DNA of 64,000 nucleotides from Aestuariivirga sp. (GTDB taxonomy: Bacteria > Pseudomonadota > Alphaproteobacteria > Rhizobiales > Aestuariivirgaceae), in the NCBI RefSeq assembly GCF_020252395.1, contig NZ_JADCDB010000014.1, forward strand, positions 62,001 through 126,000, given 5' to 3'. The notes under the pieces were generated by a model, which saw only the letters and a program-made list of their open reading frames with translations, was not told the DNA's origin and did no database searches. Shown in pieces: positions 28,596 through 32,939 of the stretch. How positions within the stretch are numbered: the stretch's first letter is position 1; each line of letters starts with the position of its first letter. The position numbers and the translations under genes were made by a program.

Positions 28596-29027
28596 ATGAC
28601 ACTTACCGCTCAGACTCCCGCCCTCGCCCTCCCGGAACCACGCTCCTGGAAGCAGGCCATGTGGCGCGGCTTCACCTGTTCCTGCCCGGCCTGCGGCGAG
28701 GGGCGGATGTTCGGCAAGTATCTGAAGGTGGTGGATTCATGCACGTCCTGCGGGGAGGAACTGCACCATCACCGTGCCGATGATGCGCCGCCCTATTTCA
28801 CCATGATGATCGTCGGCCACATTGTGGTGCCGCTCGTCCTCGTGGTCGAGAAGGTCTGGCATCCGGATGTCTCGATCCATGTGATGATCTGGACCGCCGT
28901 CACTTTGTCCATGACCTTCGCCCTCATGCCCGCCGTCAAGGGCGCCATCGTCGGTCTGCAGTGGGCGAACCGCATGCATGGCTTCGACCCGGCCCACCGC
29001 GACGGCGTGCATCCGCCCGGGCCATGA
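28596..29027 (+). CDS. DUF983 membrane protein with zinc ribbon
   Basis: 143 residues. An N-terminal zinc-ribbon pair (CSCPACGEGRMFG and CTSCGEELHHH, CxxC x n CxxC) precedes two hydrophobic segments (FTMMIVGHIVVPLVLVVEKVW and a second around 'TLSMTFALMPAVKG'). This is the DUF983 layout, common beside rnr and NUDIX genes in Hyphomicrobiales. The function is unknown. The stop overlaps the start of the NUDIX gene (ATGA at 29024). Confidence 0.85.
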   Translation: MTLTAQTPALALPEPRSWKQAMWRGFTCSCPACGEGRMFGKYLKVVDSCTSCGEELHHHRADDAPPYFTMMIVGHIVVPLVLVVEKVWHPDVSIHVMIWTAVTLSMTFALMPAVKGAIVGLQWANRMHGFDPAHRDGVHPPGP

Positions 29028-29716
29028 CCTACGACCACCCGGAATTCGCGGGTTCCAAGCTCCACCCCAAGGTCCTCAGGCCGAAAGATTCCGCCACCCT
29101 CATGCTGGTGCGGCGGGGCGCGGGCGCACCGCGTATCCTCATGGGCCAGCGCGCCCAGGGCCATGCCTTCATGCCCAACAAATATGTCTTCCCGGGGGGC
29201 CGGCTCGATGCCGCCGACTGCCGCGTGAAGCCGGGCCGGGACCTCCATCCGGCCACGCTCGCGAAGCTCCTCGATCGCATGCGCGGCAGGCCCACCGAAA
29301 GCCGCGCCCGCGGCCTTGCCTATGCCGCGGTACGCGAGACGTGGGAAGAAGCGGGCCTGCTGTTTGGCCGCCGGACTCTGGCGGACGCCCCGGACCTGTC
29401 AGGCCTCACCCTGTTCATGCGGGCGATCACGCCGCCGGGCCGCACCAGGCGCTATGACAGTCGTTTCTTCGTGGCCGATGCCGGGAATCTCTCCAACATC
29501 GAACAGCCGCATCACGATGGCGGCGGCGAACTCCTCACCCTGTCCTGGCTGACGCTGGACGAAATCGCCTCCCTCGACCTGCCGCTGATCACCATCGACG
29601 CCCTGAAGCGGCTGAAACCCTTCCTCGACCAGGGTCATCTGCCGCCCCAGGATTGCACCGCTTCCTTCCAATATCTCCGGGGCAAGAACTGGATGGAGGA
29701 CGAGATTTCCCGGTAG
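29024..29716 (+). CDS. NUDIX hydrolase with 3' end altered by mobile element
   Basis: 230 residues. The Nudix box core AVRETWEEAG is present in a long-spaced variant typical of the large 'NUDIX hydrolase' family near DUF983 (also 'GQRAQGHAFMPNKYVFPGG'). The stop codon TAG (29714-29716) is inside the left inverted repeat of the element at 29712. Joining the flanks through one copy of the 8-bp target duplication gives a native ending of ...EISPAP-stop instead of ...EISR-stop, so only the last three residues changed. Very likely still functional. Confidence 0.87.
   Translation: MTYDHPEFAGSKLHPKVLRPKDSATLMLVRRGAGAPRILMGQRAQGHAFMPNKYVFPGGRLDAADCRVKPGRDLHPATLAKLLDRMRGRPTESRARGLAYAAVRETWEEAGLLFGRRTLADAPDLSGLTLFMRAITPPGRTRRYDSRFFVADAGNLSNIEQPHHDGGGELLTLSWLTLDEIASLDLPLITIDALKRLKPFLDQGHLPPQDCTASFQYLRGKNWMEDEISR
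29704..29711 (+). repeat. Target site duplication, left copy
   Basis: GATTTCCC directly precedes the left terminal inverted repeat and is repeated exactly at 32932-32939. The 8-bp size fits IS1-type transposition. Confidence 0.92.
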
Positions 29717-29731
29717 TGTCTCAGTTTGATT
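29712..29731 (+). repeat. Left terminal inverted repeat
   Basis: GGTAGTGTCTCAGTTTGATT; its exact reverse complement forms the right end at 32912-32931. The NUDIX stop codon lies inside it. Confidence 0.95.
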
Positions 29732-29744
29732 AAGGCTGCTGAGG

Positions 29745-29972
29745 TTAGCTTTTTTTCCAGCGTGCCGTTGCGGCTGCTCGTGCTATTTCTGACCGCTGTT
29801 GAGCGGTGAGACTAGCCGATCTGGCTTTTGCACCCTTTTTTCCGCCTTTTGCCCTGTTGGGGGCATTCCCGAGCGTATCCTCGATTTCACCTGTCGCAAT
29901 ACGGCCCACCATAACGGCACGCGCATTCACATCGGAGGGTCGTTTCTCGCCTCGTGGCCCCTTCGCCATCAT
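29745..29972 (-). CDS. Small basic cargo protein of the mobile element
   Basis: 75 residues, strongly basic. Starts MMAKGPRGEKRPSDVNARAV and has 'VGRIATGEIEDT'; it ends with a Lys/Ala-rich segment (KGGKKGAKARSAS, then LTAQQRSEIARAAATARW). That tail resembles small DNA-binding proteins with a short helical 'R..IA..AA.ARW' ending, so nucleic-acid binding is plausible. Its start overlaps the stop of the 164-residue gene (ATG at 29970-29972), so it is translationally coupled and is the last gene of the cassette. Confidence 0.7.
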   Translation of the reverse strand: MMAKGPRGEKRPSDVNARAVMVGRIATGEIEDTLGNAPNRAKGGKKGAKARSASLTAQQRSEIARAAATARWKKS

Positions 29973-30463
29973 GCGGCCTCGTCATCCCTGTCATCATCCA
30001 AAAGATCTGCCGCCCTTCGCTCCGCAATATCATCGCTGAAGTCAGTGAGAAAGTTCAACTGAGGATCTTCAGGGAAGACCTTGTTCATGTGCTCGGCATC
30101 ACACACCGCGCGGTATACATCCGATGCAATGGCTTCACGACGCTGCCGCACAGCTCTTTGCCGCAGATTTGAAGTGCCGCCTTTGTCAGTATCAAACCAT
30201 AGGCGCAACTGCATACCGCCGTCGCTGATCGCTACGCATTGTTTCGCGCGATAGGAAAACCCATCGGGGTCTCTGCGCATGGCAGTCCGCAATGCGCTAG
30301 TAATCTGCTTACGAAAGATTTTCTTCAAATCCTGCAATCGCGGAACCAACTTCTTGTGTTCCATAGCCCACGAAAGGAAGTCATCGGGATTATTAGCTTC
30401 CGCTCCCGTTGTTTCTTCCCATTCATCCCATGCACGAAGTATTTGTTCATCAAAAGTCGCCAT
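29969..30463 (-). CDS. Unknown cargo protein of the mobile element
   Basis: 164 residues, acidic C-terminus (DLLDDDRDDEAA). No membrane segment or signal. Visible features are 'MATFDEQILRAWDEWEE', a basic helical middle (KKIFRKQITSALRTAMRRDPDG), and a well-formed beta-like stretch 'KQCVAISDGGMQLRLWFDTDKGG'. I do not recognise the family. It starts 10 bases after the metallopeptidase gene's stop and overlaps the next gene, so all four cargo genes are probably on one transcript. Confidence 0.65.
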   Translation of the reverse strand: MATFDEQILRAWDEWEETTGAEANNPDDFLSWAMEHKKLVPRLQDLKKIFRKQITSALRTAMRRDPDGFSYRAKQCVAISDGGMQLRLWFDTDKGGTSNLRQRAVRQRREAIASDVYRAVCDAEHMNKVFPEDPQLNFLTDFSDDIAERRAADLLDDDRDDEAA

Positions 30464-30472
30464 ACTAATCTC

Positions 30473-31627
30473 CTAAAGACCAGTGGGGCATTGCCGACCC
30501 CAACCATCTACATACTGCCATCCAAACAAATGCTCTCTTACGCTCGTCTGATACTTGCGTAGCCAATTGTACTTGTTTGTCTTGTGTTGCACCTGCCCAA
30601 CAACAATAGCAGGATGAATCTCCATTCTTGCAGCGAACGCCAAGACATCTTGTTCAGATATGAATGGACTTTTACGAAGAATGAAGGACGTCAAATGCTG
30701 TTTTGGAACGCAAAATTCCGCTGCAGCTTCATTGGCGCGGCGCTCAATTTCAGAGCCATCCTGAGAATCAGGGTCAGTCTTCATTTCGCAATCAACGGGA
30801 ACGAAGGCAACATCTCGTCCATCGCCCCTTAGAACATGCTCACACTCATGCCTGAGAACAAAAGCAAAATTATCGAGGCGATCTAGCCGGGTTGTCATGC
30901 CAATTGCGGGCTGGCCGTCAATCCACACGCAAACACCATCAACCTTTGAGCCGGGCAACGCTTCGACCAGAACAAATCGAACGCCCGCCTCTCGCAGGAT
31001 GGACGGAATGTGCTTCAGGTCTTCCCGGTCGAGAAGATGGCTTCTGATCTTAGACAGGCTTCCGCGAAGCTTGTCTTCTGAGTATAGCGGCGCACTAACT
31101 GTTTCTGCAATCTTGATGACACGATGAAGCCATGTGTATTGCAGCGGACCAATTGCAGCCTCGTAATCATTGCCGCTAAGCCTAAAGGCACCTGGGGCGA
31201 TCTCCCCGCGGCCAATCCAAGGTATATCTTCAATCCGGTTCTTGCCGAAGAACCGCATCATCTGCAAATCCAACAATCCCGGTTCAGTGTCTTCGATCCA
31301 GCCACGCTTGATCATGTCGCGGACTGGGAAATGAGAAACCCAAGACGCGCGAGTACGAACACCGGGATCAACCGGCTTCGCTTTATTGAGATCATACATC
31401 TTCTGAAGGTTGGCGAAAAAGTCGGGCGGCATGTCGAATGCTGCCCCCAGTGACGCTGCCATATCCGGGGTAATTCCTGCCTTACCAGAAAAAAGAGGGC
31501 TAAGCGCCTGCGGAAGGACACCAAGAATGTAAGCAAGGTCCACCTGCTCCCACCCTCGGGCTTCCAGCTCTTCCTTGATGAATGTACCCGGATGATCGAC
31601 GGGCACAGGCTTGCTCTGGGGCATCAA
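30473..31627 (-). CDS. HigA-type HTH antitoxin fused to an ImmA/IrrE-type metallopeptidase
   Basis: 384 residues. Residues about 12-75 are a HigA/XRE helix-turn-helix (FIKEELEARGWEQVDLAYIL, ITPDMAASLGAAFDMPPDFF). Residues about 235-320 are a DUF955 peptidase: FVLRHECEHVLRG carries HEXXH at 260-264, and E295 in EIERRANEAAAEFCVP is the likely third zinc ligand. Such fusions can repress their own operon and cleave or sense a partner. It overlaps the HigB-like toxin's stop (ATGA), the usual toxin-first higBA order. Its likely job is neutralising the toxin; protease activity is inferred. Confidence 0.85.
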   Translation of the reverse strand: MMPQSKPVPVDHPGTFIKEELEARGWEQVDLAYILGVLPQALSPLFSGKAGITPDMAASLGAAFDMPPDFFANLQKMYDLNKAKPVDPGVRTRASWVSHFPVRDMIKRGWIEDTEPGLLDLQMMRFFGKNRIEDIPWIGRGEIAPGAFRLSGNDYEAAIGPLQYTWLHRVIKIAETVSAPLYSEDKLRGSLSKIRSHLLDREDLKHIPSILREAGVRFVLVEALPGSKVDGVCVWIDGQPAIGMTTRLDRLDNFAFVLRHECEHVLRGDGRDVAFVPVDCEMKTDPDSQDGSEIERRANEAAAEFCVPKQHLTSFILRKSPFISEQDVLAFAARMEIHPAIVVGQVQHKTNKYNWLRKYQTSVREHLFGWQYVDGWGRQCPTGL

Positions 31628-31920
31628 TGGTAATCCTCAATCGCCAAGACGGTGGCGGTCTGCGGGTTGGTTGTTTCGTCCAGCGACAAAACCATACGGT
31701 ATTGGTCATTCAGCCGGATCGAACGAAGGCCGTCCCGGTCTCCTTTCAGCTTTTCGTAGTGAAGGCTCTTCCAGTTCCGCAAGGAGCGGTCATCAACTGC
31801 AGCCCGCAAAACAGTCAGTTTCCGCCGTGCAGACTGAATTACCGATACCGGCAATTTGGTCTTGCCTGCTTCTTCTGTTTCAACGAGAGCCAGCCTGGGG
31901 TCTGCGAACACGACATCCAT
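31624..31920 (-). CDS. HigB/RelE-like toxin
   Basis: 98 residues. The HigB-type fold of the RelE/ParE superfamily is seen in 'LPVSVIQSARRKLTVLRAAVDDRSLRNWKSLHYEKLKGDRDGLRSIRLNDQYRMVLSLDE', in which the 'L...KL.G.R.G..SIRLNDQYR' run is the diagnostic motif. Members cleave mRNA on the ribosome. First gene of the cargo operon, coupled to the HigA fusion. Its promoter is in the 108-base gap shared with the transposase. Confidence 0.85.
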   Translation of the reverse strand: MDVVFADPRLALVETEEAGKTKLPVSVIQSARRKLTVLRAAVDDRSLRNWKSLHYEKLKGDRDGLRSIRLNDQYRMVLSLDETTNPQTATVLAIEDYH

Positions 31921-31933
31921 CCGGGTCTTATAA

Positions 31934-31957
31934 CGTTGATTCTTATATAGTTCAACG
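31934..31957. promoter_or_regulatory. Candidate HigA-type operator/promoter of the cargo operon
   Basis: CGTTGA and TCAACG form an inverted repeat spaced by 12 AT-rich bases that include TATATA (-10-like on the minus strand). It lies 14 bases upstream of the toxin start, where a HigBA autorepression site would be expected. Confidence 0.4.
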
Positions 31958-31992
31958 CCAATAAATGCAAGCCCTTAAACTGACAAATATGC

Positions 31993-32021
31993 TTGACATT
32001 TATCTCAGGCGGGCATATTTT
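31993..32021 (+). promoter_or_regulatory. Sigma-70-like promoter of the transposase gene
   Basis: TTGACA (31993-31998) and TATTTT (32016-32021) are spaced by 17 bases and end 7 bases before the transposase ATG. The downstream spacing is short, so the transcript would have little or no leader. Confidence 0.5.
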
Positions 32022-32028
32022 TCACTTC

Positions 32029-32922
32029 ATGAACAGGCTGCCCCTCAAAACCCGAGTTCAAATCCTCAACATGCTGGTTGAGGGGGCTTCTATGAGGTCA
32101 ACCTCTCGTGTAGCGGGCGTGTCCATCAACACTGTAACCAAACTCCTTGAAGATGTCGGAGCGGTTTGCAGCGCCCTGCACGACGACATGGTTCGAGGAG
32201 TCAATGCCAAGCGGGTACAGTGCGACGAGATTTGGAGCTTCTGTTATGCTAAGGCTAAGAACGTCCAAACTGCAAAGACCGCACCGGACGATGCAGGCGA
32301 CGTTTGGACTTGGACAGCCTTAGAAGCGGACAGCAAGCTGATCCTGTCGTGGCTAGCAGGCGGTCGCGACAGTCAATATGCTGTCGCGTTCATGGACGAC
32401 GTCAGGGCAAGGATCACCAATCGAGTTCAACTCACCACCGACGGCCACAAAGCTTACCTGGAAGCCGTTGAAGGCGCCTTTGGTGGCGATGTCGATTATG
32501 CGATCCTTCACAAGGTCTACGGCGCATCGCCGGACCCCACAAAGGGCAAGTACAGCCCAGCCGAATGCATTGGCATTCAGAAGCGCCGGGTCGAAGGCGA
32601 TCCTGACCCCAAGCACATCAGCACATCATACGTCGAACGCCAGAATCTTACCATGCGGATGGCAATGCGCCGCTTTACGAGACTCACAAATGGGTTCTCG
32701 AAAAAACTCGAAAACCATGTCCATGCGCTTGCGCTTTATTTCATGCATTACAATTGGATGCGTCAGCATAAGAGTTTGAACAAATGGACGCCCGCCATGG
32801 CGGCGGGCCTGACAGATCGGATTTGGACGTGGGAGGACATCCTCGTCATCGCTGACAGGGCAGAAACCGAAGCCGTTCAGGCCAAGCGGCTTGCCCTTCT
32901 CGAAACGCCACAATCAAACTGA
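32029..32922 (+). CDS. IS1-family DDE transposase
   Basis: 297 residues from the ATG at 32029 (MNRLPLKTRVQIL). Residues about 5-45 are a helix-turn-helix (LVEGASMRSTSRVAGVSINTVTKLL). Catalytic candidates are D66 in QCDEIWSF, D138 in LTTDGHKAY and E203 in SYVERQNL, the IS1-type DDE spacing; 'MRRFTRLTNGFSKKLENH' is a further family hallmark. The frame is complete, with no frameshift, and its stop TGA (32920-32922) lies in the right inverted repeat. It moves the whole 3.2-kb element. Confidence 0.95.
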   Translation: MNRLPLKTRVQILNMLVEGASMRSTSRVAGVSINTVTKLLEDVGAVCSALHDDMVRGVNAKRVQCDEIWSFCYAKAKNVQTAKTAPDDAGDVWTWTALEADSKLILSWLAGGRDSQYAVAFMDDVRARITNRVQLTTDGHKAYLEAVEGAFGGDVDYAILHKVYGASPDPTKGKYSPAECIGIQKRRVEGDPDPKHISTSYVERQNLTMRMAMRRFTRLTNGFSKKLENHVHALALYFMHYNWMRQHKSLNKWTPAMAAGLTDRIWTWEDILVIADRAETEAVQAKRLALLETPQSN

Positions 32923-32931
32923 GACACTACC
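32912..32931 (-). repeat. Right terminal inverted repeat
   Basis: AATCAAACTGAGACACTACC, exact inverse of the left end at 29712-29731; followed directly by the duplicated target GATTTCCC. Confidence 0.95.
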
Positions 32932-32939
32932 GATTTCCC
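32932..32939 (+). repeat. Target site duplication, right copy
   Basis: GATTTCCC, identical to 29704-29711. The bases after it (CCGCGCCTTGA) contain the original stop codon of the NUDIX gene. Confidence 0.92.

Follow-up and report, generated by a model that had tools for sequence, protein, structure and literature searches.

The element and its insertion site

The window analysed here is a stretch of 64,000 nucleotides (nt) from Aestuariivirga sp. (assembly GCF_020252395.1, contig NZ_JADCDB010000014.1, positions 62,001 to 126,000); coordinates count from its first letter. At 29712-32931 it contains a 3.2 kb element resembling an insertion sequence (IS) which is complete, i.e., the ends, the target duplication and an intact transposase are all present. 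The left terminal inverted repeat (29712..29731, plus strand) is identical in 20/20 positions to the right one (32912..32931, minus strand). The repeat sequence is GGTAGTGTCTCAGTTTGATT, perfect over 20 bases and 92% over 26 nt. Directly outside lie the two copies of an 8-bp target duplication, GATTTCCC, at 29704..29711 and 32932..32939, identified as direct repeats and by an empty site. In a congener (locus L114) the uninterrupted site with a single GATTTCCC reads GACGAGATTTCCCCCGCGCC; its counterpart in the window is GACGAGATTTCCC, followed by the element and GATTTCCCCCGCGCC. Because this site is unbroken in the congener, the element is a clean insertion. It displaced the last codons of a host gene (28961..29716, plus strand) which by eye, with no family search, is NUDIX-like.

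Within the element a divergent promoter region (31921..32031; a TTGACA...TATTTT pair upstream of the transposase was spotted by eye) separates the transposase from a cargo operon. The transposase (32032..32922, plus strand) is IS1-related, of the DDE type and encoded in a single frame; its stop codon is inside the right terminal repeat. The apparent operon on the minus strand has the order HigB-like toxin (98 amino acids (aa); 31624..31920), HigA-type helix-turn-helix (HTH) domain fused to an M78/ImmA-IrrE peptidase (30473..31627), F2 (164 aa; 29969..30463) and F0 (75 aa, basic; 29745..29972). HigB overlaps the start of HigA by 4 nt, and so do F2 and F0.

A sequence-only reading of the window had claimed perfect 20-bp inverted ends, a perfect 8-bp target duplication, an intact DDE transposase and, as a four-gene cargo, a HigB-like toxin, a HigA-HTH/HEXXH metallopeptidase fusion and two small proteins. 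The ends, the duplication, the transposase, the toxin and the fusion are all confirmed. The composition of the cargo has to be revised, as set out below.

Recurrence among relatives

A scan of a species-level genome collection returned at least 578 related stretches, of which the best 80 were kept. Together with the loci of related genomes and the window they make up the 104 loci examined. Six pairs among these have identical transposase stretches, never two delimited elements. The sample is biased to transposases which resemble that of the window, and ends were found by motif and chosen for duplication. Both ends and an 8-bp duplication were identified in 63 of the 104 loci (62 exact, one with a mismatch), with 63 different duplications. 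The other 41 were left uncounted because an end is missing from the stretch, a contig end or short flank cuts the element, or no duplication matches. Target preference is weak, judged by base counts of the duplications (C first in 29/63).

All 63 delimited elements are far longer than a transposase, which itself needs about 0.9 kb: they measure 1947-4416 bp with a median of 2932, and no bare IS is among them. At least 400 bp are located between F0 and the transposase in every one, and in 18/63 at least 400 bp follow also behind the transposase. A transposase match is present in 19 of 100 related genomes, own genome and fragments counted. Re-reading 21 loci, 16 with longer flanks and 5 plasmid stretches, gave ends and exact duplication in 14 (2611-4224 bp), five of them already included in the 63. 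A more distant sample of viral contigs (68 loci, four of which repeat another) contains ends and exact duplication at 36 loci, with 35 different duplications.

The recurrence for which the sequence-only reading proposed to search is therefore real: like ends with duplications exist at 62 other places, all longer than a bare IS. Its refuting outcome, cargo-free copies and cargo which never recurs, did not materialise; a single cargo-free copy, L244, is considered below. A fixed four-gene cargo, by comparison, is not supported. The 75-aa gene occurs in all 63 elements, the pair of peptidase and 164-aa protein in 9/63 and HigB in 3/63.

F0, the second core gene

Since all 63 delimited elements encode F0, it is a core gene and not cargo. 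Of the two small proteins both reading frames are supported by relatives, and the 75-aa one belongs to the transposon itself; its assignment to the cargo is ruled out by its presence throughout and by its co-location with the transposase in genomes. F0 sits at the transposase-distal side in all 63 elements. In 62 it is read from the strand of the transposase, and only in the window from the opposite one. Here F0 appears to have been inverted into the cargo operon, and the 4-nt overlaps make its co-expression with the toxin-antitoxin genes probable.

In the 100 related genomes (own included) F0 has 26 matches in 19 genomes. Every match with E<2e-16 lies within 2.1 kb of a transposase match (18/18), as does 1/8 of the weaker ones. 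Conversely, 16 of 17 full-length transposases in these genomes are accompanied by F0, and the one without it comes from a contig of only 3.9 kb. In the re-read set F0 was found in 19/21 loci. At L197, one of the delimited elements with F0 in the viral-contig sample, the F0 match is limited to the rear half and is on the other strand. A PHROG of unknown function is matched by 57/61 F0 members, and in one record, an M. loti plasmid, F0 is annotated as histone H1.

Clusters of open reading frames (ORFs) were made with a coverage rule; when this was omitted F0 merged with seven longer proteins of the P63C family. At L183, L188, L192, L205 and L213, in the viral-contig set, long cargo proteins, apparently of P63C type, have at their start a motif, GGKARA...RW, which resembles the end of F0. 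The start of such P63C-type minus-strand ORFs with an F0-like motif suggests why the two merged. In three viral-contig loci, F0-less by profile (L216, L220, L221), another small basic ORF possesses, by eye, an NQIAHxVV motif like that of the front part of F0.

F0 is rich in lysine and arginine, and structure prediction yields three helices at modest confidence (predicted local distance difference test score, pLDDT, 79; predicted template modelling score, pTM, 0.35). Most likely it is a small DNA-binding regulator of the element. A candidate for its site of action is a palindrome, ATGCTT-N5..7-AAGCAT, searched with up to 2 mismatches and, at the left end, in the stretch 27-126. It is present at the left end in 35/63 elements, at the transposase promoter in 36/63 and at both places in 29/63, compared with 1/366 flank windows and 2/189 cargo windows as background. 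This suggests a putative operator common to the left and the transposase promoters, to which perhaps F0 binds, or the transposase via its own HTH. F0 would then act at the paired palindromes in many relatives.

It is somewhat less probable, yet a serious alternative, that F0 is no repressor but a transposition helper, which binds the ends or acts as a target factor, or else a nucleoid-like protein. Its lysine/arginine-rich composition, the three predicted helices, the histone H1 annotation and the lack of a fold match in the PDB all suit such a protein. A regulator is the better fit to the palindromes paired at the two promoters, though here, too, the HTH of the transposase could be the binding partner.

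The transposase and its family

Residues D65, D137 and E202 are each conserved in at least 61/63 elements; from these conserved positions we read them as the probable DDE triad. The best-scoring IS family in NCBIfam is IS1, whose model NF033558 gives 67.6 bits where the cutoff is 100; Pfam PF03400 attains 23.2 bits, below its cutoff of 24.1. The claim of an IS1-like element with passenger genes is supported, with family scores below the cutoffs. With the single-frame members of the IS1 family the element shares the DDE triad, ends which begin with GG, the 8-bp duplication and the best NCBIfam score. Target duplications in the IS1 family are 8-9 bp. The two-frame insA/insB arrangement is a trait of IS1 which the window transposase does not have. 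Further, the IS1 family consists of small elements holding transposase genes only, whereas the window element has 3.2 kb with F0 and cargo and scores under the curated cutoffs.

Membership in the IS1595 family, an example of transporter IS, was rejected (NF033547, 18.9 bits against a cutoff of 75). PMC7986276 defines a transporter IS as an IS carrying passenger genes unrelated to transposition. The window element, with one transposase and passenger genes between its ends, falls under this definition. It differs from the transporter IS of the IS1595 family in its transposase, and its family has the conserved F0 and a frequent turnover of cargo.

There is a considerable chance, albeit below even, that ISfinder already lists this family, as a passenger-carrying subgroup of IS1. 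Several IS families are recognised to include transporter IS (PMC7986276), and three of the four top plasmid matches of the transposase are annotated as IS1 family transposase. On the other hand, a literature search returned neither the end sequence nor IS1-family elements with such cargo. The former was in no paper covered by the text search, the scope of which excluded most subscription papers; the latter was judged by titles and abstract openings, ISfinder not being covered.

A distantly related transposase sequence, 31% identical, is present in the 321-kb Brevundimonas phage vB_BpoS-Gurke (ON529850.1, 174791-175663), where no feature is annotated.

The cargo of the window element

The toxin matches Pfam PF05015 (33.0 bits, cutoff 27). 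In the fusion protein the HigA domain is recognised by TIGR02607 (51.8 bits, cutoff 47.7) and Peptidase_M78 by 23.4 bits (cutoff 22), with HECEH as metallopeptidase motif. Both HigB and HigA models are above cutoff and the genes follow each other in this order, as in type II toxin-antitoxin systems of the HigBA type. In PADLOC the fusion protein matches PD-Lambda-2_B (PDLC03982) with 127.3 bits and E 2.3e-37. With RosmerTA (PADLOC models RmrT/RmrA) it has in common an HTH-M78 protein with a toxin partner; its match to RmrA is weak, 21.0 bits.

F2 has no match in Pfam, NCBIfam or PADLOC. Its AF2 model has a pLDDT of 90, and a fold search of the PDB and a viral library returned nothing at E<=0.001 (best viral entry A0A220NS53, unnamed, E 0.016). 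F2 and the peptidase form a recurrent pair in 9/63 elements, window included, and the peptidase has F2 beside it in 9/9. The remaining 54/63 have other cargo. Among plasmids F2 matched three records only, two of them beside transposase and F0 of the element family. The third, a Paraburkholderia plasmid, has a like gene order, consisting of a gene annotated as RelE/ParE-family toxin, HigA-M78 (42% identity) and a weak F2 match (25% identity over 73%, E 5e-4). It has no match to the transposase of the element family; a type I restriction (R-M) gene and an Abi gene are nearby.

According to PMC9519451, the phage defence system PD-lambda-2 comprises A, which is HigB-like, B, a HigA-Xre-peptidase, and a third gene without which there is no defence; on its own B was toxic, and A rescued this toxicity. 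The window cassette has the same order of HigB-like toxin, HigA-Xre-peptidase and third gene, and it matches the B profile. The A and C profiles remain unmatched and the third gene differs. F2 as a PD-lambda-2 C is not supported by PDLC03983, which gives no match in the own genome at E<=10; 164 aa stand against a model of 374 positions. By its anatomy the cassette may well work like PD-lambda-2; we do not file it as a member.

On this analogy the HigB/HigA-M78/F2 module most likely provides abortive-infection phage defence. HigB would inhibit translation, HigA-M78 would repress and neutralise or gate HigB, and F2 may be an accessory required for triggering.

Cargo across the family

To assign cargo families, a single representative of each cluster was compared with Pfam or PADLOC; single-copy genes were not assigned singly. 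The commonest cargo in the 63 elements is the RmrA-type HTH-M78 protein (14), followed by the PD-lambda-2-B-like HTH-M78 protein (9), P63C (7), NYN, SDH protease and RmrT (5 each), nSTAND/AAA (4), HigB, SocA and HARE-HTH (3 each), and PemK and Abi_2 (2 each). At least one toxin-antitoxin, defence or nuclease family is present in 37/63 elements, by a stricter list in 29/63. PADLOC on 121 cargo ORFs from 62 elements gave RmrA models with 14-21 members each, PD-Lambda-2_B with 11 and RmrT with 5. For 109 flank ORFs of the same loci (120-450 aa, at most 2 per locus) no model had more than one member. This comparison is a contrast and not a test because the sets differ in size and selection and the cargo ORFs are partly homologous.

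Is the cargo bound to a particular transposase lineage? A transposase tree of 63 rows, made by a quick method, was used to map the cargo type of the 51 labelled elements, and cargo changed at least 29 times. Five sister pairs have different cargo: L054/L065 (two contigs of one metagenome-assembled genome), L039/L043, L063/L072, L090/L099 and L080/L095. Over the transposase and a short leader the sisters have 86-92% identity; between the core parts they are unmatched. They match also in parts of F0 and, with the exception of L080/L095, in the left 65-90 bp. From these pairs, recombination in the shared core parts seems the simplest reading of the exchange.

We consider it rather unlikely that the cargo is an addiction module which kills cells that lose the element and thus stabilises the element without use to the host. 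HigB/HigA are classical addiction families. Their domains were identified here by Pfam and NCBIfam, and families of the SocA, PemK and HigB type are found in sister elements. Many cargoes, however, are not evident toxin-antitoxin pairs, such as P63C, SDH protease and nSTAND/AAA (7, 5 and 4 of 63). Also, PD-lambda-2, which among characterised relatives matches best, protects against phages (PMC9519451). Likeness to PD-lambda-2, and genes of RosmerTA, SocA, PemK, Abi and NYN type in the sisters, would favour defence at least as well as addiction.

A probable transporter IS with exchangeable cargo

Taken together, the element quite probably belongs to a large IS1-related family of transporter IS which have a two-gene core and an exchangeable, defence-rich cargo. 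The ends, the duplication, the empty site, the core genes, their recurrence and the turnover of cargo are directly observed; on these we build the proposals that F0 is a regulator, that the cargo defends against phages and that recombination exchanges it. The core consists of two ends of about 20 bp, the single-frame DDE transposase and, at the opposite end, the 75-aa F0. An exchangeable cargo slot lies between F0 and transposase, at times with a second slot behind the transposase. Anatomy and empty site show that the unit is inserted as a whole by the transposase and that 8 bp of target are duplicated. A host which keeps the element may be rewarded by the defence cargo, and cargo would be swapped among elements when these recombine in the conserved ends, F0 and transposase. 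For a more far-reaching statement we see as much in favour as against: the elements would form a widespread but so far undescribed family of compact transposons (2-4 kb) in which the transposase, together with F0 as its repressor at paired operators, mobilises single, interchangeable defence or toxin-antitoxin cassettes, swapped by recombination in the shared core.

Several findings weigh against this interpretation. Transposition, defence and toxicity are predictions from the sequence. The own genome has one transposase match, i.e., a single copy; when 2 mismatches are allowed, the end motif occurs there at both element ends and at one other place (2 mismatches). In the viral-contig sample F0 was detected by profile inside 25/36 delimited elements and in none of the other 11/36; it is near 44/57 full-length transposases, and 13 have none by profile. 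One of these 13 is a contig-end case, the other twelve have 40-57% identity. As F0-less transposases lie in the more distant sample, F0 is characteristic of the closer relatives within the family. F0 matched no fold in the PDB at E<=0.001 and nothing in the sequences of solved structures or in Pfam. The palindrome is at neither place in 21/63 elements and is lacking in the window copy, with 4 mismatches at both places. Within the cassette no PADLOC model matched HigB or F2 at E<=0.01, PD-Lambda-2_A (PDLC03981) and PD-Lambda-2_C (PDLC03983) have no match in the own genome at E<=10, and HigB, present in 3/9 elements with the HigA-M78/F2 pair, is missing in 6/9. None of the counted toxin-antitoxin, defence or nuclease families is present in 26/63 elements. 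For all ten cargo groups the tree requires 39 changes; shuffling gave 43.0 on average and a count as low as 39 in 8/200 runs; because of this slight clustering exchange is frequent, not free. L088 is a complete element with a cargo slot devoid of a long ORF and of intact cargo, which probably decayed. The 776-bp L244 from the viral-contig sample has ends, 8-bp duplication, F0 and a 60-aa transposase stub without cargo; it is a deletion derivative and the only cargo-free copy seen.

A one-off nested insertion, in which a simple IS happened to receive a toxin-antitoxin operon, could draw on the single copy in the own genome and the F0 orientation unique among 63, yet it can hardly be maintained and is rejected by the recurrence across the delimited elements. 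Of these, 63/63 exceed a bare IS in length and hold 400 bp or more in this slot, 9 of them with the peptidase/164-aa pair.

The transporter IS proposed here bears resemblance to other carriers. Tn3-family transposons have another transposase family and are larger elements; well-known carriers of defence genes, Tn7-like elements, prophages and islands, are also large. Tn3-family transposons contain toxin-antitoxin passenger modules and exchange them, as stated in PMC7157771. The likeness is that toxin-antitoxin pairs are carried as part of the transposon and modules are exchanged; the cargo of the window family goes well beyond toxin-antitoxin genes. The cargo of Tn7-like transposons is rich in defence and toxin-antitoxin genes, 96% having cargo (PMC8649781). 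This richness is shared by the window family, which differs by its size of 2-4 kb and its one transposase gene, no other transposition gene except F0 being recognised.

By which routes defence systems pass from one genome to another is still an open question. If our interpretation is correct, an IS-class carrier of 2-4 kb would be about the simplest vehicle for defence genes, and immunity genes would travel on autonomous elements of the smallest class. Because ends and core are recognisable, the cargo slot can be read systematically. Unknown genes residing in the slot (F2, F7, F9, F10, P63C and others) are candidates for new defence or toxin-antitoxin genes.

The neighbourhood of the host gene

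In a different genome a family member is located directly behind the same host gene (L122 / L163, G034:C1). Its transposase is 73% identical, its orientation is opposite and it is some tens of bp away; it is an independent insertion beside the same host gene. In the congeners L113 and L117 unrelated sequence replaces the usual neighbour behind this gene. From these two, the spot behind the host gene may be a place of frequent change.

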